Of a stretch of DNA of 64,000 nt, positions 2-44,354 are shown piece by piece; the stretch's first letter is position 1, and each line of letters starts with the position of its first letter. The stretch covers positions 44,871 through 108,870 of the IMG/VR virus record IMGVR_UViG_3300029812_000326. One strand, given 5' to 3'. The notes beneath the pieces were generated by a model. The model saw nothing but the letters and a program-made list of their open reading frames with translations, was not told where the DNA came from and searched no databases. The position numbers and the translations under genes are program-made. Source of the DNA: a virus.

Positions 2-3000
2 GAATATAATAATGAAAATAGAGAAATAGCTATACGTCTTCAAACTGCCAGTTGTCCTGAAAAATATGGGCATCCAATGAAAATTTTTGCATATCCATAT
101 AAAGGAATGTTAACTCCAATAGAAGGATTAAGATCGATTACTTGGGTTGATGCCGTTCTTCGTAAAGATCTTGCAAAACGCGGCAGAATGTCAGTCATGT
201 TAGGCCAAATTCAAAGATTGACTAGGAATTTCCAAACCATTCATTCGAAATTAACTCCATCCCAAACATTTCAATTTTTTGAAACAGTTAAAATTTTTGT
301 GAATAAAATAAATTCAATGGGTGGTATTAAATTAGATTGGCAAGTCAATAAAGGTAAACTTCAATTTATAGACGAAATAACGGGAAAAGAATGGCAAAAA
401 TTGGATCTCGGAAAAATTGAAAAAAATTGGTTACAATTTTCCGAAGGCGAATGGGTTAGATTTATGAAAGAATATTCCCAAAAAATCCGACATATGATGA
501 TTTCATTTGGGATTAAATATTCCAGACATGATCCTCGCTTGCCTTATTGGACTCAAGGTCAACTTGAATCGATGCTATCAACTGAATGGGGTAGACGATA
601 TCCTAAAAAACTAGCATTTGCTGATTTGTCCCGAGCTGAACAAAATGTATTTCGGGAAAAAATAGAAGTAGAAATGCACGAACAATTATCAAAAAGTGAA
701 TTCTCCAAATTTTTTACAAAAGCAGAATTAGAACGTTGGAAATCCGGAACTTTAATGGAAGGCCATCTTTCTTTGATTCAACTATTCGGCGGTTCTTGGG
801 GAATATTAGAAGTTACTCCGGCATCTAGAGCATATGAAGCCGGAGAATTATATGCTAAAGGTGCCGATATAAAAATCCCCAGCTTGGATGAATTAGTTGT
901 GTCCGGACCAATAGCTCAAAGAATTGCTCGCACATTCACTGGCGAACAGCGCGATATGATGAATTATATGTCAAACATCCAGCCCCTTTTGAGATATGGA
1001 ATCTTGCCTGAATCTCATTATCCAATTATAAAAGCCTCAGAAATAAATCTTGATCCTATGACAACTCATTTAGGATTTAAAGAGGAAATTGGAATCATAG
1101 AAGATAAATCTTTCAGAATTAAATGCGTTGAAACTGGGGAAATTTTTAATTCTTTGGAAGAAGTTCCAGACCGCTATTTGAAGCAATATACATTAAGACC
1201 CATGGGTATGAATGCATATATGCACCCAAAAACCTTGGAATCGATGTATGGACAACAACCAACTATAGTTGAATTCAATATAGGGAAAAAGAAGGTTTAC
1301 CTTCCCAGACCGGCATTATCATTTATCAGAGGTGCGCCCGCCAGAGTCACGAAAAGCGGAGATCCTTATACCATCATTGGAAAAGAGATTCAAACATTTA
1401 AAAATCTATTGATTGCGGCATCAGATTACGAGAAAATTAAAGGGGACGAAGCAAAAGCCGCATTTGAAAGAAAGTTCTTTTCACGGGCTGAAGACTATAA
1501 AAATATGATATTAACGGATAAAAATGCATATATAAAAATGACCAAACCAACGATTCCTGGAGTTCAAGGAAAGATTTCCATGGCATTTGCCCCCGGAATG
1601 GCTAAAGCGTTGGGATTGCCGCAAGATATGTTTAGCCATATAACTACAGGATTTGGGATACAGGGAGTATCTGTAAAGTCGATGGGCGAAGAATATTTTA
1701 ATAAAGCCATGGATGTCCATCAAATAAAGGAAGGATCGAATGTTGGAAAATATAGAGGCGCCACAGGAATGGTTTATCCGAATAAAATGGCGTTTAGGGA
1801 AGCTCTTATTGAAGGTGAAGAATTACTTGCGGGAACTATTATCAGAACCCCCGCAGAAAACCGATTCGCATTTTTTGATACATTGATCACTGTTAAAAAA
1901 GATCAAGCAGCTGGAATGCGCCTCCAACTTAGAGAAGCATTAGCAACCCACTGTGATTATGATGGGGATATAGGGCGCCTAGTATTTGCCGAGTTTTCTC
2001 CCCAGGAGCAGGAGCAAGCTTTGAAAGATCTCATAAATAAGCAACACGTTGATAGAAAAGCACATGCAACATTAGCTGAAAGGATCAAAAAGCTTCAAGC
2101 AAATGTGCTTGAATATGAAACCGGCAAAGACGTCGCAACCAAAAAACAGATTGTCAAGGAAATTGAACAAATTCAAGAACTTGAAAAAACAATGAACGTT
2201 AATGTCTATGGTCAAGGTATTTGGGTAAGGGAAGCTAAACCAAAAGCGATTCCAAAAGAAATTAAATTAGGAATTGGCGATGAAATGAGATTTCGAAAAA
2301 TGAATTTGCATCAGTTTATGAAAGAATTGCCATCTATTGATCTTCCCGAAAGATTGATCAAATTACCGGGTGAAGAATTGGAACAACATCTTTCCAATAT
2401 GCTTACGAAAACTGCTACAGCCTACTCGTATAGAAAAGCAATGACCATGAGATCAGCAACTAAGCTATTTGGTGGAAAATTAACTGAACAATATTTGGAC
2501 TTATATAATGAATTGGCCGGAAAAGTTACTGCATTCAAAAAAGTTCCATATGAAAAAGCTGAGCAAATAACTAGAGCTCTATTGGAACCAGAAGCTGCAG
2601 AATCGAAAAAAATTATGGGAGAAGTATTAAATAGGGATGCGGAAGAACTTTGGCCACAATTTAAAGAATGGCATTCTGCACTAAATCGTGCCATGATGAG
2701 AAAGGAAGTTAATGAATTAATCAGTTCTGGAATGAAACGCGCCCCTATTACGGGTGGACAGTTGGCATTATGGGGTCCAAGTGCAGAAATCCCTGCTGCA
2801 GGAAAGACTCGCGCAATTTTAGACTTTTGGGGTAAAGAAAAGTTTCTTGATAGCTTTAAACGTCAAGGGAAAAAAGGCGGCATTGCAATTGCGTTGGCCG
2901 CGCTTGTCGCTCCGATTTTCCTGTCGCACGATAATATATATGATAAAAAAGGATATCCAATAATTCCAACGAATTTCAACGTTGCTCAGCCAATATTCCC

Positions 3001-3160
3001 AGCCCCTATTCACATAATACCAAACGATCCACCATCGCATCCTATAAGAACATTTAAACCTCAGATTATTGATCCTTTGCTTATTAATTTTGGTTCTGAC
3101 AACAACTTAACAACAAGAAGGAATAGTGGCCAATATCCAAATGAATTGAGAAATTACTAG
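2..3160 (+). CDS. Putative two-barrel (DxDGD) RNA polymerase, 5' end outside the window
   Basis: The reading frame is open from the first complete codon, so at least 1052 residues are present and the start lies upstream. The key signal is THCDYDGD (DYDGD at nt 1955-1969), preceded 37 codons earlier by RTPAENR (from nt 1844). In cellular RNA polymerase beta' the metal-binding NADFDGD loop follows the RAPTLHR motif at nearly the same distance. YonO-like and crAss-like phage polymerases and eukaryotic RNA-dependent polymerases carry a similar DxDGD loop. Further upstream, GKISMAFAPGMAKALGLP resembles the barrel strand leading to the active site. Near the C-terminus (nt 2877-2927) is a hydrophobic segment, then a Pro-rich tail. 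Its place before the tail genes would suit a polymerase packaged in the virion and injected with DNA. The role is inferred from one motif pair and context; another large virion protein with a chance DYDGD remains possible. Confidence 0.5.
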   Translation, partial: EYNNENREIAIRLQTASCPEKYGHPMKIFAYPYKGMLTPIEGLRSITWVDAVLRKDLAKRGRMSVMLGQIQRLTRNFQTIHSKLTPSQTFQFFETVKIFVNKINSMGGIKLDWQVNKGKLQFIDEITGKEWQKLDLGKIEKNWLQFSEGEWVRFMKEYSQKIRHMMISFGIKYSRHDPRLPYWTQGQLESMLSTEWGRRYPKKLAFADLSRAEQNVFREKIEVEMHEQLSKSEFSKFFTKAELERWKSGTLMEGHLSLIQLFGGSWGILEVTPASRAYEAGELYAKGADIKIPSLDELVVSGPIAQRIARTFTGEQRDMMNYMSNIQPLLRYGILPESHYPIIKASEINLDPMTTHLGFKEEIGIIEDKSFRIKCVETGEIFNSLEEVPDRYLKQYTLRPMGMNAYMHPKTLESMYGQQPTIVEFNIGKKKVYLPRPALSFIRGAPARVTKSGDPYTIIGKEIQTFKNLLIAASDYEKIKGDEAKAAFERKFFSRAEDYKNMILTDKNAYIKMTKPTIPGVQGKISMAFAPGMAKALGLPQDMFSHITTGFGIQGVSVKSMGEEYFNKAMDVHQIKEGSNVGKYRGATGMVYPNKMAFREALIEGEELLAGTIIRTPAENRFAFFDTLITVKKDQAAGMRLQLREALATHCDYDGDIGRLVFAEFSPQEQEQALKDLINKQHVDRKAHATLAERIKKLQANVLEYETGKDVATKKQIVKEIEQIQELEKTMNVNVYGQGIWVREAKPKAIPKEIKLGIGDEMRFRKMNLHQFMKELPSIDLPERLIKLPGEELEQHLSNMLTKTATAYSYRKAMTMRSATKLFGGKLTEQYLDLYNELAGKVTAFKKVPYEKAEQITRALLEPEAAESKKIMGEVLNRDAEELWPQFKEWHSALNRAMMRKEVNELISSGMKRAPITGGQLALWGPSAEIPAAGKTRAILDFWGKEKFLDSFKRQGKKGGIAIALAALVAPIFLSHDNIYDKKGYPIIPTNFNVAQPIFPAPIHIIPNDPPSHPIRTFKPQIIDPLLINFGSDNNLTTRRNSGQYPNELRNY

Positions 3161-14752: not shown

Positions 14753-15499
14753 ATGAAGATGAAAAAATGGTCTCAAAAGTATGGTGATTGTTGTATTGAA
14801 TGTGGAACTACAGAAATTCCCCATAAAGGGCATGGATTGTGTAAAAAATACTGGGAAAAAAATTATCACAAAAAATATGATATTGAACATAAAGATGCTC
14901 TGCAAAAATATAGACACAATTATTATAAACGAAACAGAAATAAAATTCTTATACGAAATAAACTTCGAGAAGCAAAAAATAAAGCTGCGCTTAAAATATA
15001 TAACAAGATATATAAAAAAAAGTATTATCAAAATAATAAAACTAAATGTGAAAAATATCGTCGAAAATATTATCAGGAACATAAAAGAAAAATCATAGAA
15101 AATACTTTGCAGTATTATAATGATAACAAGAATCAAATGGATATAAAAAGAAAAAAATACCGACAATCATTAAATGGCAAAAGTATTTGTAAAATAACCA
15201 AACGAAAGTATAGGGCCCGGAAAAAGGGTGTTGATTTTTGGACCAAAGAGATGACTATTCGTTGGTGGTGGATGTTGGACGCAACTGAGGGATATTGTCC
15301 AATGTGTGGGAATCCATTTGATAATGGGGAACATAAATTTACAATGGATCATATATTACCATTGAATTTAGTAGATAAATTAGGAAAAACTGAAGCAATT
15401 AAATTAGGCGCAATTCATCACATAGATAATGTTCAAGTATTATGCATGAAATGCAATAGCAAAAAACATACGAAAATTCCAATATCAAAAAAGCAATGA
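14753..15499 (+). CDS. HNH homing endonuclease (KKWSxKY family), long form
   Basis: This 248-residue enzyme has three parts. The N-terminal zinc knuckle is KKWSQKYGDCCIECG followed by HKGHGLCKKYW. A very basic Lys/Tyr-rich linker (residues about 30-150) probably binds DNA. The C-terminal HNH nuclease reads GYCPMCGNPFDNGEHKFTMDHILPL, then HHIDNVQVLCMKCNSKKH, with DH as catalytic core and two CxxC knuckles. Relatives are at 17891 and 29314, with remnants at 11187 and 41299. It is inserted between two complete structural genes and overlaps the next start by four bases (ATGA). Such enzymes cut an unoccupied site and are copied in by repair. Confidence 0.9.
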   Translation: MKMKKWSQKYGDCCIECGTTEIPHKGHGLCKKYWEKNYHKKYDIEHKDALQKYRHNYYKRNRNKILIRNKLREAKNKAALKIYNKIYKKKYYQNNKTKCEKYRRKYYQEHKRKIIENTLQYYNDNKNQMDIKRKKYRQSLNGKSICKITKRKYRARKKGVDFWTKEMTIRWWWMLDATEGYCPMCGNPFDNGEHKFTMDHILPLNLVDKLGKTEAIKLGAIHHIDNVQVLCMKCNSKKHTKIPISKKQ

Positions 15500-17890: not shown

Positions 17891-18064
17891 ATGAAGAAAT
17901 GGTCTAAAAAATATGATTGTTGCCAAAAATGTGGAGAATATGTTGGAATTAATAAACTTACGATGGATCATATAATTCCTATTTCGAAAGGCGGAATTCA
18001 TCATATAAATAACGTTCAGCCTTTGTGTATGCATTGTAATTCAATAAAGCATAATTCAATTTAA
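17891..18064 (+). CDS. Miniature HNH endonuclease (57 residues)
   Basis: This is the shortest HNH protein here. It joins the N-terminal knuckle of its family (MKKWSKKYDCCQKCG) almost directly to the catalytic core (LTMDHIIPISKGGIHH) and second knuckle (PLCMHCNSIKHN). It lacks the basic linker and about 130 residues present at 14753 and 29314. All zinc cysteines and the DH catalytic pair remain, so it could be a minimal active nuclease, or an internal deletion product with its ends preserved. I chose the ATG at 17891 because paralogues start at the same point; an ATG at 17873 adds six residues but lies only ten bases from the promoter element. It overlaps the next gene by one base. Confidence 0.75.
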   Translation: MKKWSKKYDCCQKCGEYVGINKLTMDHIIPISKGGIHHINNVQPLCMHCNSIKHNSI

Positions 18065-29313: not shown

Positions 29314-29877
29314 ATGAATAAAAAATGGTCCAAAAAATATGATCGTTGTCAAAAATGTGGAACCACGGGAAGTCCGCATGCCGGGCATGGATTATGTAGA
29401 AAATGCCATGAAATATGGTATTATAATAATCCAAAAGGAAATAAAATTAAACAAAAAGTTGCAAAAAAATATCATAGTTCAGAAAAAGGCAAACTTGTAT
29501 TTCGAAATGCAACTAAAAAATGGAGGTTGTTGCATCAAGAAGAAATAAGAATTTATTCTAAAGAATATAATCAACGCCCAGAAATAAAGAAGAATAACAT
29601 AATAAAAACAAATATTCGTCGGGCGCGGAAAAAATCCGTAGATTTTTGGTCTGAAGAAATGTCTGAACGATGGGAATGGATAATAGATGCAACAGAGGGA
29701 TATTGTCCATGTTGTGGAGAACCATTTGATAATGGAAAACATAAACTTACAATGGATCATATAATTCCATTAACTCCAAAATCAGGAGATCCACAAGGAA
29801 TTCATCATATTGATAATGTTCAAGTATTATGTAAAAGTTGTAATAGTTCAAAACATAATAGGTTGGAACCGAAATGA
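29314..29877 (+). CDS. HNH homing endonuclease (KKWSxKY family)
   Basis: The 187-residue enzyme has the family's three parts: N-terminal knuckle KKWSKKYDRCQKCG with HAGHGLCRKCHE (four cysteines), a basic linker, and the nuclease GYCPCCGEPFDNGKHKLTMDHIIPL followed by GIHHIDNVQVLCKSCNSSKH. The catalytic DH pair and all zinc ligands are intact, so it is likely active. It lies directly between two tail genes, starting right after one stop and overlapping the next start by four bases. The insertion leaves both neighbours complete. Confidence 0.9.
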   Translation: MNKKWSKKYDRCQKCGTTGSPHAGHGLCRKCHEIWYYNNPKGNKIKQKVAKKYHSSEKGKLVFRNATKKWRLLHQEEIRIYSKEYNQRPEIKKNNIIKTNIRRARKKSVDFWSEEMSERWEWIIDATEGYCPCCGEPFDNGKHKLTMDHIIPLTPKSGDPQGIHHIDNVQVLCKSCNSSKHNRLEPK

Positions 29878-38816: not shown

Positions 38817-40127
38817 ATGTCTAATCCAATTATGCCAAGTAGTGGTGGAGAATCGAAAGACAAAACTCCTCCAATAATTGGTGGAGATGAATGTGAACAA
38901 GGATCTACTTGTGATGTAGATACCACACCTCCAGTTATATCTCCTCCTTCTTGTGGATGGGGGGTTGCTGGAGCCCGAGGGTATCCAGGATTGCCAGGAC
39001 CGCAAGGTCCACAAGGAGAGCAAGGAATTCCTGGGATCAGTGGTGAACCCGGGGAAGCTGGACTTCAAGGAGATCCTGGTATGAGCGGTGAACCGGGAGA
39101 GCAAGGCCCACAGGGACCAGAAGGCCCAGAAGGCCCAGAGGGGCCTCCAGGATCAGGAGGATGGCAGACTTTAGATGATATTTGCGCGGTTGGAAATGAA
39201 ACAGATTATGATATTCATACATCTGGGGATTTGATTGTAGACCATTCGGGAATGTTTGGGAAAGATATATTTCTTAATTGGGATGGACCAGATGATGATA
39301 GTTATTTATATTTTTATGACGGAGCATCTCCTACTGGGCGACATTTAAAATGGAACAATGCGTCCAGTAGATTTGAATTTAATGAAGATGTCCGTTGTGC
39401 AGAATTAGAGGGCGGGAAAAATATTCATATAAATATCTATCATAATGATGTTGACGCAGTCATGCATTTTTATAAACCCGGTGCAGGATATGAATTTTTT
39501 AAATGGGATAAAACTAATAATAAATTTGTTCTTAGTGATAAAATAGAAATCGGCGGAAATACAACTGTTTTGGGGAGTATTTATGGACATTCAAATATTG
39601 TGGCTTATGGAGATTTATTAGTTAATTATGATTATGGAGATGTCGATGCGCAAATAAGATTTTTCAAATCCGATTCAAACGAAGAATATCTTAAATGGAA
39701 TAAAACCCACAATTGGTTTGAATTCTCAGATGATCTCCATGTGGGCGGCGGAATATCTGGTTCTTTCTTTATAATAGGGGATCTTGCACTTCCTGGTAGT
39801 CCAGTTGAAGGAACTATAGCATATGATTCAACTTCTGGGGAATTCTTCGGATGGGATGGGAGTGTATGGGATCCATTTAGTGGTGAAGTTGGAATAAGTG
39901 GAGAGCCTGGACAACAGGGAATATCAGGAGAACCGGGAGAACAAGGATCTCCAGGAGATATCAGTCAAGCAACTTTAGATTTCGTATGTGATAATTCGAA
40001 TGAAACAGATCAGGATATTCACACATCGGGAGATTTGATTGCAGATGAAACTCTCGAAGCCAGAAGAATTGAATTGAATAAAAATATGAATTACGAAGAC
40101 GTTGTTATTTATTTTTACTTTCCCTAA
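38817..40127 (+). CDS. Tail fibre with collagen-like repeats, first of three fragments
   Basis: The 436-residue product carries about 25 Gly-X-Y triplets near residues 50-115 ([16 protein letters not shown] and onward) and a second short set near residue 360 ([16 protein letters not shown]). Between them are stalk units: [20 protein letters not shown] followed by about 40-residue blocks ending in FYxPGxxxExxKWDKTxxxFxxSD. The protein stops inside such a unit, after DVVIYFYFP. The missing half (FKYSVARGRFEF) opens the gene at 40716, beyond an HNH gene. So this is the N-terminal piece of a fibre gene interrupted by insertion. Confidence 0.85.
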
Positions 40128-40149
40128 TCCATAATGGAGGAAATATTGA

Positions 40150-40695
40150 ATGGGTAGAAAATTACTTAATTTAACTGGGCAAAGATTTGGAAGATTAATT
40201 GTTTTAAAATTTGCTGGTAGGAATAAATTTAGTCAAACCCGCTGGCTATGTAAATGTGATTGTGGAATGGAAAACATTGTTTCCAGTGTGAATTTAAGAA
40301 ATGGAAATACAAAAAGTTGTGGATGCTTGAGGAACGAAACTGCATCTCAAACATGTAAGAAACGCTTGGAATCTAATCATCCTCGATGGAAAGGCTTTAC
40401 ATACGATAGTAATGGATATGTTTTAATTCATCTTGGAAGAAAAAAATATATACGTGAGCATATTCTTGTAATGGAACAACATTTAGGAAGAAAATTATTA
40501 AAAGATGAAAATATTCATCATAAGAACGGAATCAGGGATGATAACCATTTGGAGAATTTGGAATTATGGACACATGCCCATCCTTGTGGTCAAAGAGTTT
40601 CAGATATGATTAAATTCTGTGAAGAATATTTAATTCAATATAATCCGTCTAGAATAAAAAAATTAAAGTATAATGATTTAATCAATTATAACTAA
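40150..40695 (+). CDS. HNH homing endonuclease with N-terminal zinc domain, inserted in fibre gene
   Basis: The 181-residue enzyme differs from the other HNH families here. Its N-terminus (GQRFGRLIVLKFAGRN, then WLCKCDCG and NTKSCGCLRNE) is a Cys4 zinc module seen in many free-standing phage endonucleases. The nuclease is of HNH_3 type: REHILVMEQHLGRKL followed by NIHHKNGIRDDNHLENLELW, where HH and N are catalytic. GGAGG lies nine bases before the ATG. With only 22 bases before it and 20 after it, it fills the break in the fibre gene. Confidence 0.9.
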   Translation: MGRKLLNLTGQRFGRLIVLKFAGRNKFSQTRWLCKCDCGMENIVSSVNLRNGNTKSCGCLRNETASQTCKKRLESNHPRWKGFTYDSNGYVLIHLGRKKYIREHILVMEQHLGRKLLKDENIHHKNGIRDDNHLENLELWTHAHPCGQRVSDMIKFCEEYLIQYNPSRIKKLKYNDLINYN

Positions 40696-40715
40696 GAGAA
40701 AGGAGGTGAAATCGC

Positions 40716-41249
40716 TTGAGTTTCACTACATTTAAATACAGCGTTGCTCGAGGTCGGTTTGAATTCACGGCTCCAGCTCAGATTTCAGGAGAATTATATG
40801 TTGATGGCTCTGGAATGTTCGAAGATGATATTTATTTACATTATAAGGGTCCAGATGGAGATCAATATATATTCTTCTATGATGATAGTGCGCCTGATAA
40901 CGAATGGCTGAAATGGGACGAAGCGGATGATCGTTTTGAATTCAGCAATGATCTTTATGTCGAAGGTGCTGGACTCATTTCAGAAATATCCGGACATGCA
41001 TATGCTGCTGAAGGCGATACATTGGATGTTGTATGCGGCAGAGGGCATGAAACGCAATATGATATCCATAGTTCTGGAACGATTACCGCCGATGTAGATC
41101 TGGATGCTGGAGTGGACGTGAATGCCGGCGGTGATATAAATGCTGGTGCGGATGTGACTGCAGGTGGAGATGCAAAAATCGATGGAAATGTCCATGTCAA
41201 TTTTGATGCAGGTGCCGGCGATCCAACGGTTTTCTTTTATTATTCCTGA
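40716..41249 (+). CDS. Tail fibre, second fragment
   Basis: TTG is the start, set by a near-perfect AAAGGAGGTGA upstream. The 177-residue product begins in mid-repeat (FTTFKYSVARGRFEF) and then has a full unit (QYIFFYDDSAPDNEWLKWDE, DDRFEFSNDL) and the stalk signature TLDVVCGRGHETQYDIHSSG. A run of short DVNAGGDINAGADVTAGGDA repeats follows. It again stops inside a unit, after DPTVFFYYS. It is the middle piece of the split fibre and is in the same frame as the pieces on either side. Confidence 0.8.
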   Translation: MSFTTFKYSVARGRFEFTAPAQISGELYVDGSGMFEDDIYLHYKGPDGDQYIFFYDDSAPDNEWLKWDEADDRFEFSNDLYVEGAGLISEISGHAYAAEGDTLDVVCGRGHETQYDIHSSGTITADVDLDAGVDVNAGGDINAGADVTAGGDAKIDGNVHVNFDAGAGDPTVFFYYS

Positions 41250-41251
41250 TT

Positions 41252-41285
41252 AAGAATAGCAAATGGGACTTGCTTTCTTATTCTT
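41252..41285 (+). other. Stem-loop at the second fibre break
   Basis: AAGAATA (41252-41258) pairs with TATTCTT (41279-41285), and the adjoining GCAA pairs with TTGC (41270-41273), with a seven-base loop and a five-base bulge. It lies just after the stop of the second fibre piece. It could weaken transcription or be left from the inserted element. There is no long T run, so it is not a convincing terminator. Confidence 0.35.
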
Positions 41286-41298
41286 TTCTGGAGGAAAT

Positions 41299-41400
41299 AT
41301 GTTTGAATATTTTAAATGGTCTAGGAAATTTGATTGTTGTATTGAATATGGAACCGTAGAAAGACCGTATTATGCTAAAGGATTTGGAGCGATAAAATGA
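41299..41400 (+). pseudogene. Remnant 5' end of an HNH endonuclease gene
   Basis: A 33-codon frame with a good GGAGGAA site reads FKWSRKFDCCIEYGTVERP then AKGFG. This matches the start of the 14753 HNH protein (KKWSQKYGDCCIECGTTEIP, then HKGHG). The second Cys of the knuckle has become Tyr, the GHG histidine is lost, and the frame ends in TGA before any nuclease domain. It lies in the second break of the fibre gene and overlaps the next fibre start (ATGA). It is a decayed homing gene, kept perhaps because its ribosome site feeds the fibre fragment downstream. Confidence 0.7.
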
Positions 41401-43070
41401 GTTTGGAATATCTGAAATTTAACATTTCTAATGACAGATTTGAATTCAGTGATGATATACATATTTCTGGATGCGGATCTTTCTGTGAATTATCTGGGTC
41501 TTACTATGGATTATCTGGAGATTATATCTCTCATCGTGATGATACATCTAATCCTCACGAAGTAACATTTGATCAAGCCAGAGATCAACAGGGAGGCTCT
41601 GACGTAACATTGGCAGAACTTGAAGAATTGACCGATGGCTCTGTAACTGTATTGCATGCTCATGCTGGCGGCGGAGCAGATACTTTGGATAATGTTTGTG
41701 ATCGGGGAAATGAGACAAACCAAGATATACATAGCTCGGGCACGGTGTATGCTGATCGTTCCCTAATGACCGATGGTGATGTAGAAATCGCCGATGATTT
41801 GAATGTTGGTGATGATGCATCCATATCGGGCGATTTACATGTTGTGGGCACTTTCTATACGGATGGTGAAATTCATGCTGGTAATTCTATTTTTGCGACA
41901 GGCGATTTAAAAGCAACTAATAATCTTTATTTAAATAGCAATAATGATAATCAAGATGCTGTTGTTCATTTTTACAAACCCACTGCAGGCGAAGAAACTC
42001 TGAGATGGGATAAAACAGATCTTCGTTTTGAATTTAGTGATGATTTACAAGTTCAAGGCAAATTATTAGTTGATAATTCAGGAACATTTGAAACGGGATT
42101 ATTTTCAAAAGATGATGTTTATTTTTCTCGCGATCTTTACATTGAAGAGGATATTCTCTGTGAATGGGATGCTTATATAAAAAGTTTAATTCTTAATAAA
42201 AACTTTCACAATACTACTGCGCAAATTATTTTCAGAAAACCTACTTCTGGATTTGAATCTTTAACATGGAATAAAGGTACAAATAGATTTTTATTGAGTA
42301 ATGATTTACAAATTCAAGGTGATCTTTATATAGATGAATCCGGAACATTCGGCGATCAAGTAGTAGTTGACGCATCAGGAATTTATTATGAAGCGAATGA
42401 TCAACATACTCACATATCTGATTTCCTTGCTGGATTGCCTGGGCTTATGTTTAATACATCATCGGAGAAGTGGCAATATTGTAATGATGGCTCTACTTGG
42501 GCGGATATTGGGAGTGGTGGTGCCGGTGCTGGAAGCATACTTCTTCCTGTTGAAGGCGCCGCTCTTGGTGATGGAACAGTTGGTTCAGCTGCGCCGGCTC
42601 TAAGTCTTGTTACAACTTCGGATGCCGATGATCCTCAGTGCAGAACATTTTGCCTACGATTTGATGCCAGCACGGATGAACATTGCTTCTGGCAATTCCG
42701 ACTACCTGCTGATTATAGTTCTGGCGGAAGACTTAAAGTTCAATTTTATAATGTTAGTGCTCAATTAAATGATATAAAAACTGCACAATTTGAAGGATGT
42801 CTCCAAGCTGTAACTCCTGGTGATGCAACAATTATGACTGCTCTTGATCTGACAACGGATGGTGGTGGTTGGGTTGGAACACTTAAGACCTTGACATCGG
42901 GCACAACAGCTGGAAGATTATATGAATCATCTATTGATATGGCTTCCAATCTCGATGGAATGGTTGCTGGAGATTTTATACAATTTGGATTAAGAAGAGA
43001 TGTTAGTGATGACGATGCTACAGGAGATATGGCAGTGATTGCAGTAACATTCGAATATAACTATGCATAA
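41397..43070 (+). CDS. Tail fibre, third fragment with receptor-binding end
   Basis: The 557-residue product begins in mid-repeat (SLEYLKFNISNDRFEFSDDI), continuing the unit broken at 41249. Further units follow: TLDNVCDRGNETNQDIHSSG, AVVHFYKPTAGEETLRWDKT and AQIIFRKPTSGFESLTWNKG. From about residue 330 a new domain starts (LAGLPGLMFNTSSEKWQYCNDGSTW) and leads to a beta-sandwich end (FCLRFDASTDEHCFWQFRLP, VIAVTFEYNYA), probably the receptor-binding tip. Together with the two preceding pieces the original fibre would be about 1170 residues. Confidence 0.85.
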   Translation: MSLEYLKFNISNDRFEFSDDIHISGCGSFCELSGSYYGLSGDYISHRDDTSNPHEVTFDQARDQQGGSDVTLAELEELTDGSVTVLHAHAGGGADTLDNVCDRGNETNQDIHSSGTVYADRSLMTDGDVEIADDLNVGDDASISGDLHVVGTFYTDGEIHAGNSIFATGDLKATNNLYLNSNNDNQDAVVHFYKPTAGEETLRWDKTDLRFEFSDDLQVQGKLLVDNSGTFETGLFSKDDVYFSRDLYIEEDILCEWDAYIKSLILNKNFHNTTAQIIFRKPTSGFESLTWNKGTNRFLLSNDLQIQGDLYIDESGTFGDQVVVDASGIYYEANDQHTHISDFLAGLPGLMFNTSSEKWQYCNDGSTWADIGSGGAGAGSILLPVEGAALGDGTVGSAAPALSLVTTSDADDPQCRTFCLRFDASTDEHCFWQFRLPADYSSGGRLKVQFYNVSAQLNDIKTAQFEGCLQAVTPGDATIMTALDLTTDGGGWVGTLKTLTSGTTAGRLYESSIDMASNLDGMVAGDFIQFGLRRDVSDDDATGDMAVIAVTFEYNYA

Positions 43071-43097: not shown

Positions 43098-43784
43098 ATG
43101 AGTATAGAATTTACAAATGCAGCTTCAAAATATGCGTGGGTTGATAGAACACCATTTGAAATAAATGGACCTTTGACTGTGTCTCTTTGGCTTTACGTAA
43201 AAACTCTTACGGCCTGGAATGGAATTTATACTATGGGACTAAATTCAGGTATAAATCTCTTTATGACAGATGGTATTAAATTGCGATCATTTGTAAGAGA
43301 AAAAACACCCATTCGATGGCAATTCAATGATTCAACAAATAATATTAATGCAAATCAATGGTATCACGTTTGCCAAGTTGTAACAGCAGATAATATGCAT
43401 CTTTATATAGATGGAGTTGATCAAGAAGCAATCAGTCCTGGAGGATATGGAGGGGATATAAATTATCCAGATGTTTATGATTGGCGCATCAGTGGATATA
43501 ATGATCAAGAATTTGATGGTATGATAGAAGATTTAGCTTATTGGAATAAGGAGCTTAGTATAGCACAAATTCTTTTATTGGCTAAATCTTATAAGAAAAG
43601 AATACCATTACAAATTCAACCTGCTAATTTGATGCTTTATCTTCCATTTGATGAAGCAAATATTGGAGCTGCATATGGAACAGCGTATGATTGGAGTGGT
43701 AATGGACGGAATGCAACACCAAGCGGTCCTCCAATAGGAGCAAAAGGAATTTTATCTTATCCGTCAAAGATCGTTATGGTATAA
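43098..43784 (+). CDS. LamG-like lectin domain protein
   Basis: The 228-residue product is a single concanavalin A-like jelly roll: LTVSLWLYVKTLTAWNGIYT, ANQWYHVCQVVTADNMHLYI, DGVDQE, ISGYNDQEFDGMIEDLAYWN and ELSIAQILLLAKS are the usual LamG_3 strands and closing helix. The later LMLYLPFDE and YDWSGNGRNATPSG resemble the opening strands of a second copy. Such domains bind carbohydrate, and the place right after the fibre suggests a host-surface ligand. Confidence 0.85.
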   Translation: MSIEFTNAASKYAWVDRTPFEINGPLTVSLWLYVKTLTAWNGIYTMGLNSGINLFMTDGIKLRSFVREKTPIRWQFNDSTNNINANQWYHVCQVVTADNMHLYIDGVDQEAISPGGYGGDINYPDVYDWRISGYNDQEFDGMIEDLAYWNKELSIAQILLLAKSYKKRIPLQIQPANLMLYLPFDEANIGAAYGTAYDWSGNGRNATPSGPPIGAKGILSYPSKIVMV

Positions 43785-43787
43785 AAT

Positions 43788-44354
43788 ATGATTGATCATA
43801 TTGTAGGCATAGATGAAGTTGGAAGAGGCTGTTTAGCCGGTCCAGTCGTTGCATGTGCAATTATGACCAACTATTCTGCAATTCCCCTATGTTGTCGGGA
43901 TTCTAAGAAATTTACTGAAACCCGCAGGAAATTCGTGGCCCGCATATGTCTTCCCTACGTAAATAAAATAGCATTTGGAACGATTTCAAATGAAATTATA
44001 GATGAATTTGGCATTAAAAATGCTACGAAGTTAGCTATGACCAGAGCATATGAAAAACTTAATCCCAATCATGATATTGTATACATCGATGGCATAGATG
44101 GAATAGGAATCAAAGATGAAATTGTTGTGCCTCATGGAGATGACCTAATTCCCTGGATATCATTGGCTTCCATATATGGCAAAATCTATAGAGATTTCAT
44201 AATGATTCAGTATTCTGAGATGGAAGAATACAAAATGTACAATTTGGATAGGAACAAAGGCTATCTTACGCATGAGCACAAAGTGGCGATTGATAGGTAC
44301 GGATTGTCGAATATTCACCGACAATCATTCAGTTGGGAGAATTCTTGGAAATAA
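43788..44354 (+). CDS. rnhB: Ribonuclease HII
   Basis: The 188-residue enzyme removes ribonucleotides and RNA primers from RNA/DNA hybrids. Motifs are complete: GIDEVGRGCLAGPVVACA at residues 7-24 with the catalytic Asp-Glu, DSKKFTETRR, VYIDGIDGIG with a metal-binding Asp, ASIYGKIYRDFIM, and NKGYLTHEH with HRQSF at the end. At this length it is a compact, complete form. It is odd in being the last gene of the structural operon, on the opposite strand from the replication genes it would assist. It starts three bases after the lectin stop. Confidence 0.95.
   Translation: MIDHIVGIDEVGRGCLAGPVVACAIMTNYSAIPLCCRDSKKFTETRRKFVARICLPYVNKIAFGTISNEIIDEFGIKNATKLAMTRAYEKLNPNHDIVYIDGIDGIGIKDEIVVPHGDDLIPWISLASIYGKIYRDFIMIQYSEMEEYKMYNLDRNKGYLTHEHKVAIDRYGLSNIHRQSFSWENSWK

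Follow-up and report, generated by a model that had tools for sequence, protein, structure and literature searches.

We investigated a tail-fibre locus in a 64,000 nucleotide (nt) stretch of viral DNA (the window, bases 44871–108870 of the IMG/VR virus record IMGVR_UViG_3300029812_000326, which has 108,870 bases in total). The explanation best supported by its sequence is that HNH endonuclease genes of two different families each broke one ancestral fibre gene, and that both breaks hit the same point of its repeat. The locus consists of three fibre pieces on the plus strand, p1 (38817..40127, 436 amino acids (aa)), p2 (40716..41249, 177 aa, with a TTG start) and p3 (41397..43070, 557 aa), which sum up to 1170 aa. 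They are separated by insert 1 (40128..40715, 588 nt) and insert 2 (41250..41396, 147 nt), and the G+C content is ∼31% in both inserts (30.8 and 31.3%) compared to 38–43% in the fibre pieces, with 40–43% in the two that flank insert 1. An initial annotation, made from the letters of the DNA, had proposed such a twice-broken gene, and we found this proposal supported by complementary half units at the breaks, by the joined flanks and by homologous fibres that are single open reading frames (ORFs). Upstream (L009) are genes for a major capsid-like protein and for a tail sheath of 905 aa, so that we regard the uncultured phage as a myovirus.

The stalk of the fibre is composed of repeated units, which we analyzed with a hidden Markov model (HMM) of 49 positions built from 10 units of other phages only (L036–L040). 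These loci were fetched by a profile alignment query, in one row of which a Trp of a unit had been replaced by Arg, and were then judged on their natural sequences. The HMM confirmed, well above chance, the stalk motifs which the initial annotation had seen in all three pieces. Complete units were found three times in p1, once in p2 and twice in p3 (independent E-values 1e-13 to 6e-23), and half units were found at exactly the four broken ends. In p1 a collagen-like region (Collagen PF01391, 51 bits) is accompanied by complete units at residues 150–192, 202–248 and 265–312, and residues 417–434 match HMM positions 2–19, so that the piece ends with the first strand of a fourth unit (...DVVIYFYFP-stop). 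The right half of this fourth unit opens p2 (positions 28–48 at residues 6–26), which continues with a complete unit (37–84) and a TLDVVC motif and ends in the left half of a sixth unit (positions 1–19 at residues 157–175; ...PTVFFYYS-stop). Correspondingly, p3 starts with the right half of the sixth unit (positions 25–47 at residues 3–25), followed by complete units at residues 175–223 and 266–310 and by a C-terminal domain (approximately residues 378–557) that is common to L036 and other loci. The half units are thus complementary at both breaks (2–19 and 28–48 at break 1, 1–19 and 25–47 at break 2), and when the flanks were joined by script one whole unit per break was obtained, scoring 20.7 and 36.8 bits.

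The end and start positions in the unit HMM (p1 ends at 19, p2 starts at 27–28 and ends at 19, p3 starts at 25) agree with the earlier statement that each break separates the FYxP strand from the LKW strand, and they put both breaks at the same place of the unit. We further modelled one intact p3 unit with AlphaFold2 together with 28 other natural units (predicted local distance difference test (pLDDT) 90) and obtained a unit of three strands, AVVHFY (residues 26–31), EETLRWD (37–43) and RFEF. This confident model assigns the place of the breaks to the turn between the first two beta strands (32–36, KPTAG). When 29 intact units were aligned, almost all differences in length within the unit core were located in that turn, which is absent from some L038 units. 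Both insertions have therefore hit the unit where it is most tolerant. We roughly estimate a chance of ∼3% for a second break to land no more than 2 residues from the unit position of the first. A fold search of the unit gave no confident match in the PDB, while a viral library returned tail-fibre-like proteins at weak E-values; the model of the C-terminal domain was poor (pLDDT 57) and was not used.

Insert 1 consists almost entirely of an intact HNH gene (40150..40695, plus strand, 181 aa), as had been claimed for the first break, with just 42 nt outside its ORF. Its product combines an N-terminal zinc/CapR-like DNA-binding region with an HNH_3 domain, for which PF13392 was matched with 34.8 bits (cut-off 24.8, 1.3e-08). 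It also resembles phrog_20891 (1e-24) and phrog_374 (2e-22), the N-terminal region being of the phrog_374 type. At the 3′ end of the insert lies the start signal of p2, AGGAGGTGA (40701..40718, plus strand), which comprises a Shine–Dalgarno site and the TTG start codon; its duplex energy of −17.5 ranks first among 36 starts.

In insert 2 we found a decayed HNH gene of another family (41299..41400, plus strand), again as initially described. The ORF stops after 33 codons and covers an N-terminal zinc finger, which scored 34.7 bits with an HMM built from the fingers of six intact endonucleases, whereas the best of 1000 shuffles reached 7.3 bits. The finger follows the family pattern WSxKYDxCxxCGTxxxxHxxxGLCxxC, but three expected zinc ligands are lost: CxxC is changed to CxxY, the histidine to tyrosine, and the final cysteines are missing. 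We refer to this ORF as a relic because the C-terminal HNH nuclease domain has been deleted and just 33 codons are left. At the DNA level the relic was aligned with the window gene at 14753, with L026 and with L047, each time better than all 500 shuffles. The alignment with the L026 HNH gene runs via GCTAAAGGATT..GCGA..AAA up to the p3 start codon, and the Shine–Dalgarno region of p3 is therefore partly former HNH coding sequence. Moreover, the TGA of the relic overlaps the ATG of p3 (ATGA), a layout that would suit translational coupling. A six-frame scan of the window for the zinc-finger HNH family yielded, besides the relic, two intact members at 14753–15499 and 29314–29877 and a tiny ORF at 17891–18064. 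Two further candidates in insert 2 were rejected: a link between the relic start MFEYFKW and the similar fibre sequence FEWLKW, which we regard as unproven given that the W is accounted for by the HNH family, and a conserved leader shared with L047/L048, since the leader alone was not significant (61 of 1000 shuffles were equally good).

According to the initial annotation both inserts begin with GGAGGAAATAT. One copy per insert is indeed present, and the sequence occurs nowhere else in the 64 kb, but neither copy stands at the beginning of its insert. They lie ∼9 nt (insert 1, 40136..40146) and 41 nt (insert 2, 41290..41300) past the stop codon and are the Shine–Dalgarno sites of the two HNH ORFs (plus strand, duplex energy −9.3 each, ranks 4 and 5 of 36); the second copy takes in the A and T of the start codon of the relic. 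We also asked whether either insert had been copied from the other and rejected this, as the shared sequence is limited to a 12-base ribosome site. The ORF coordinates confirmed that both inserts are multiples of three (196 × 3 and 49 × 3) and thus keep the frame. Chance alone would give this in 1 of 9 cases, and no functional weight attaches to it, because every piece has its own start. Each insert leaves a start codon for the next piece, as was noted before, namely TTG for p2 and ATG for p3.

Some observations weigh against the proposed history of the locus. Both split units lack the tryptophan kept in 28 of the 29 intact units: in strand 2 it is replaced by tyrosine or phenylalanine (FKY and LKF instead of LKW, regions 40716–40775 and 41397–41456). 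Break 1 has in addition a badly eroded right half, so that the original unit may no longer be formed. Evolution at the split junctions thus differs from that of intact units, through either relaxed constraint or adaptation to free chain ends. A shared DNA target at both breaks was rejected: the flanks are 43% (left) and 50% (right) alike, which is no more than between intact units, and a common recognition site is therefore unsupported. Finally, we found no close relative in which this very fibre is uninterrupted. The tail sheaths in G001 and G002 are ∼90% identical to the sheath of this phage, yet neither gave a fibre match, and the G002 contig stops within the orthologue of gene 36654, just short of the fibre locus.

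The tryptophan loss and the eroded half unit would also be expected if the fibre were a dead end, truncated such that p1 works alone or together with a second fibre, while p2 and p3 are leftovers being lost. The same genome does carry a second fibre gene, a collagen-plus-stalk gene of 305 aa (L009 3568–4485); in the relatives L025 and L026 the corresponding spot contains no such gene. Nevertheless, we consider a dead end unlikely. The reading frames of p2 and p3 stay open for 177 and 557 codons and have a codon bias near that of p1 (codon-usage scores of 0.46, 0.43 and 0.34 bits per codon for p1, p2 and p3), and they retain complete units, the C-terminal domain and good ribosome sites. Ranking the Shine–Dalgarno sites of the 36 starts, we obtained rank 1 for p2, 4 for the intact HNH gene, 5 for the relic, 10 for p3 and 27 for p1. 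Furthermore, the decay of the second HNH gene shows that time has elapsed, and p3 is undecayed. Taken from the sequence, the start signals and the codon usage would fit three separately translated, still useful chains.

Could the pieces always have been separate genes, brought together by domain shuffling, with HNH genes merely settled between them? Fibre genes are modular, and most of the 18 loci in which the C-terminal domain was found encode it by a free-standing gene of ∼173 codons. However, neither break falls at the border of this domain; both lie inside a unit whose halves are complementary. Looking for uninterrupted homologues, as the initial annotation had suggested, we found two fibres that run through such units as single ORFs. 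The first (L036, 624 aa) contains the NPHxxTxDQ/TLDxVC motif, stalk units and the C-terminal domain and is followed by a LamG gene; the second (L064, 679 aa) is followed by a LamG-like gene of its own. Both share with the window fibre the unit, the TLDxVC motif, the C-terminal domain and the adjacent LamG gene, but they lack the collagen-like N-terminus and the HNH inserts. Across seven other contigs, 0 of ∼27 units were cut by an ORF end. Taken together, a history of always separate genes appears very unlikely. Direct homologues of the whole of p1 or p3 were found neither in IMG/VR nor among GenBank phages, so that profile queries were needed, and no stalk-unit homologues were found in GTDB genomes. 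Several of the free-standing C-terminal domain genes (L050–L067) are located near a gene with a lectin-like start (MARxFDG...); for the one tested (L052) no Pfam family was matched.

Splicing had been raised as an alternative from the outset. The inserts would then be introns, one with and one without an HNH gene, and the mRNA would be joined as in the tape-measure gene of phage ICP1, where splicing takes out an intron that houses an HNH_3 gene, and with it apparent start and stop codons (PMC10448857). The preserved frame of both inserts is compatible with this. We observed, however, no match to a group I or group II intron in three Rfam searches covering the region and each insert alone at relaxed thresholds, with E-values up to 10 over each insert, whereas the same search mode recovered the T4 nrdD intron with 105 bits. 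Applied to nrdA/mobE of Aeromonas phage Aeh1, where genes in pieces are proven, the Rfam search likewise gave no match. Insert 1 offers just the 42 nt outside the HNH ORF, the 147 nt of insert 2 are below the usual size of a group I intron, and splicing would leave the strong starts of p2 and p3 without a purpose. We therefore found splicing unsupported and consider it highly improbable. A single chain made by ribosomal bypassing of the inserts, as in gene 60 of T4 (adjacent to mobA), or by read-through of the stops is scarcely credible: although the frame is kept and an HNH gene is known to neighbour T4 gene 60/39, in-frame stops are numerous in both inserts, the pieces have separate strong starts, and RNA structure at the stops does not exceed that of shuffles (z −0.84 to 0.05). 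Stop-site hairpins were for the same reason rejected for bypassing or terminator models.

Two insertions of HNH families in one turn, separate starts and the decay of one HNH gene can be read from the sequence itself. The full account, in which two HNH genes invaded one turn, three pieces became independently translated and the second HNH gene decayed, appears probable to us. It would start from a single fibre gene of an uncultured myovirus with a collagen-like base, eight stalk units and the C-terminal domain. Two free-standing HNH homing endonuclease genes of unrelated families would have invaded it separately, both into the codons for the turn that links the two paired beta strands of a stalk unit. 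With each insertion would have come a stop upstream, a strong HNH ribosome site, and a ribosome site and start codon downstream, by which the fibre gene would have turned into three independently translated pieces. Later, the second HNH gene would have collapsed by deletion to 33 codons, and its remnant may now serve as the leader of p3, supplying part of the Shine–Dalgarno region and a stop that overlaps the start. The three chains may co-assemble by analogy to Aeh1 NrdA, the upstream chain contributing strand 1 and the downstream chain strand 2 to a pairing across the chain ends. More tentatively, the separately made chains could be joined in virions by beta-hairpin complementation at the two split units, the turn could be a preferred safe site at which HNH genes enter a structural gene and the phage survives, and the distal parts could act as exchangeable cassettes; we regard this extension as possible but on balance doubtful.

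The best reading of the locus is a gene in pieces of the Aeh1 nrdA type, made twice. In Aeh1 (nrdA-A/mobE/nrdA-B) a free-standing HNH gene likewise lies inside a coding gene, with a new stop, a separate downstream start and no intron, and the split NrdA keeps its function (review PMC2988022). There, an enzyme was hit by one insertion at a functionally critical site, whereas the fibre is structural and carries two insertions of two HNH families in the turn of a repeat unit, one of them decayed. Similarly, the HNH gene mobA splits the T4 topoisomerase genes 39/60 into separately encoded subunits (PMC2988022); nothing in the fibre locus points to the bypassing known from gene 60. In Aeromonas phage 25 the homing endonuclease gene seg43 lies between the DNA polymerase gene halves 43A and 43B, whose products co-purify and are active, but this is a GIY-YIG (seg-like) endonuclease and a single split in an enzyme (PMC2988022). 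Aeh1 NrdA, phage 25 gp43 and T4 gp39/60 are precedents for the co-assembly of split chains (PMC2988022). The ICP1 tape-measure gene is a virion structural gene interrupted by HNH_3 genes at more than one place, and it demonstrates that splicing can occur in structural genes with HNH_3 genes inside them (PMC10448857); its inserts are spliced introns, whereas no intron is detectable in the fibre inserts.

Splits by homing endonuclease genes into functional pieces are already known for phage enzymes, and the known cases have one split each. A literature search, which did not reach most subscription papers, found neither a published tail-fibre gene split by a homing endonuclease gene nor a gene that unrelated HNH families had split twice at one position of its repeat. 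If our interpretation is true, selfish genes can persist within structural genes wherever a repeat has a tolerant turn, and natural split points of fibres are indicated. The decayed second element would represent a later stage, in which the selfish gene is gone while the split and a partly HNH-derived start signal stay. The locus gives a clear prediction that can be tested by proteomics or co-expression.

Mobility of HNH genes in this lineage is visible when the sequences of related contigs are compared. A zinc-finger HNH gene of the window (29314–29877, 187 aa) lies exactly between two genes that abut in G002 (L035 ∼1226), which gives an occupied/empty pair, and an HNH gene between two genes of G002 (L026 7351–7986) has no counterpart at this spot in G000 and G001. 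These are free-standing insertions between genes, while in the fibre the same kind of element lies inside a gene. The ORF at 17891–18064 (57 residues) belongs to the zinc-finger family but lacks the middle; what it encodes is a minimal yet complete HNH domain (PF01844, 52 bits), and it is located between two structural genes. Mobile endonucleases also occur near the uninterrupted homologous fibres, namely NUMOD3 and DUF559 at L064 5191–6123 and LAGLIDADG_2 at L036 4229–4885. In L047 (∼2885–3020) and L048 (∼2880–3020) we observed a strongly folded leader of ∼120 nt without an Rfam match, which is conserved between both contigs, follows a TATAATA box and precedes a zinc-finger endonuclease-like gene.

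Downstream of the fibre, the window encodes a LamG-like (concanavalin-like) protein on the plus strand (43098..43784, PF13385, 1.3e-18), which aligns to L036 9321–10022 and has a counterpart at L064 8520–9281, so that such a gene comes after the fibre gene in all three loci. It is immediately followed by a ribonuclease HII gene (43788–44354, PF01351, 97 bits).

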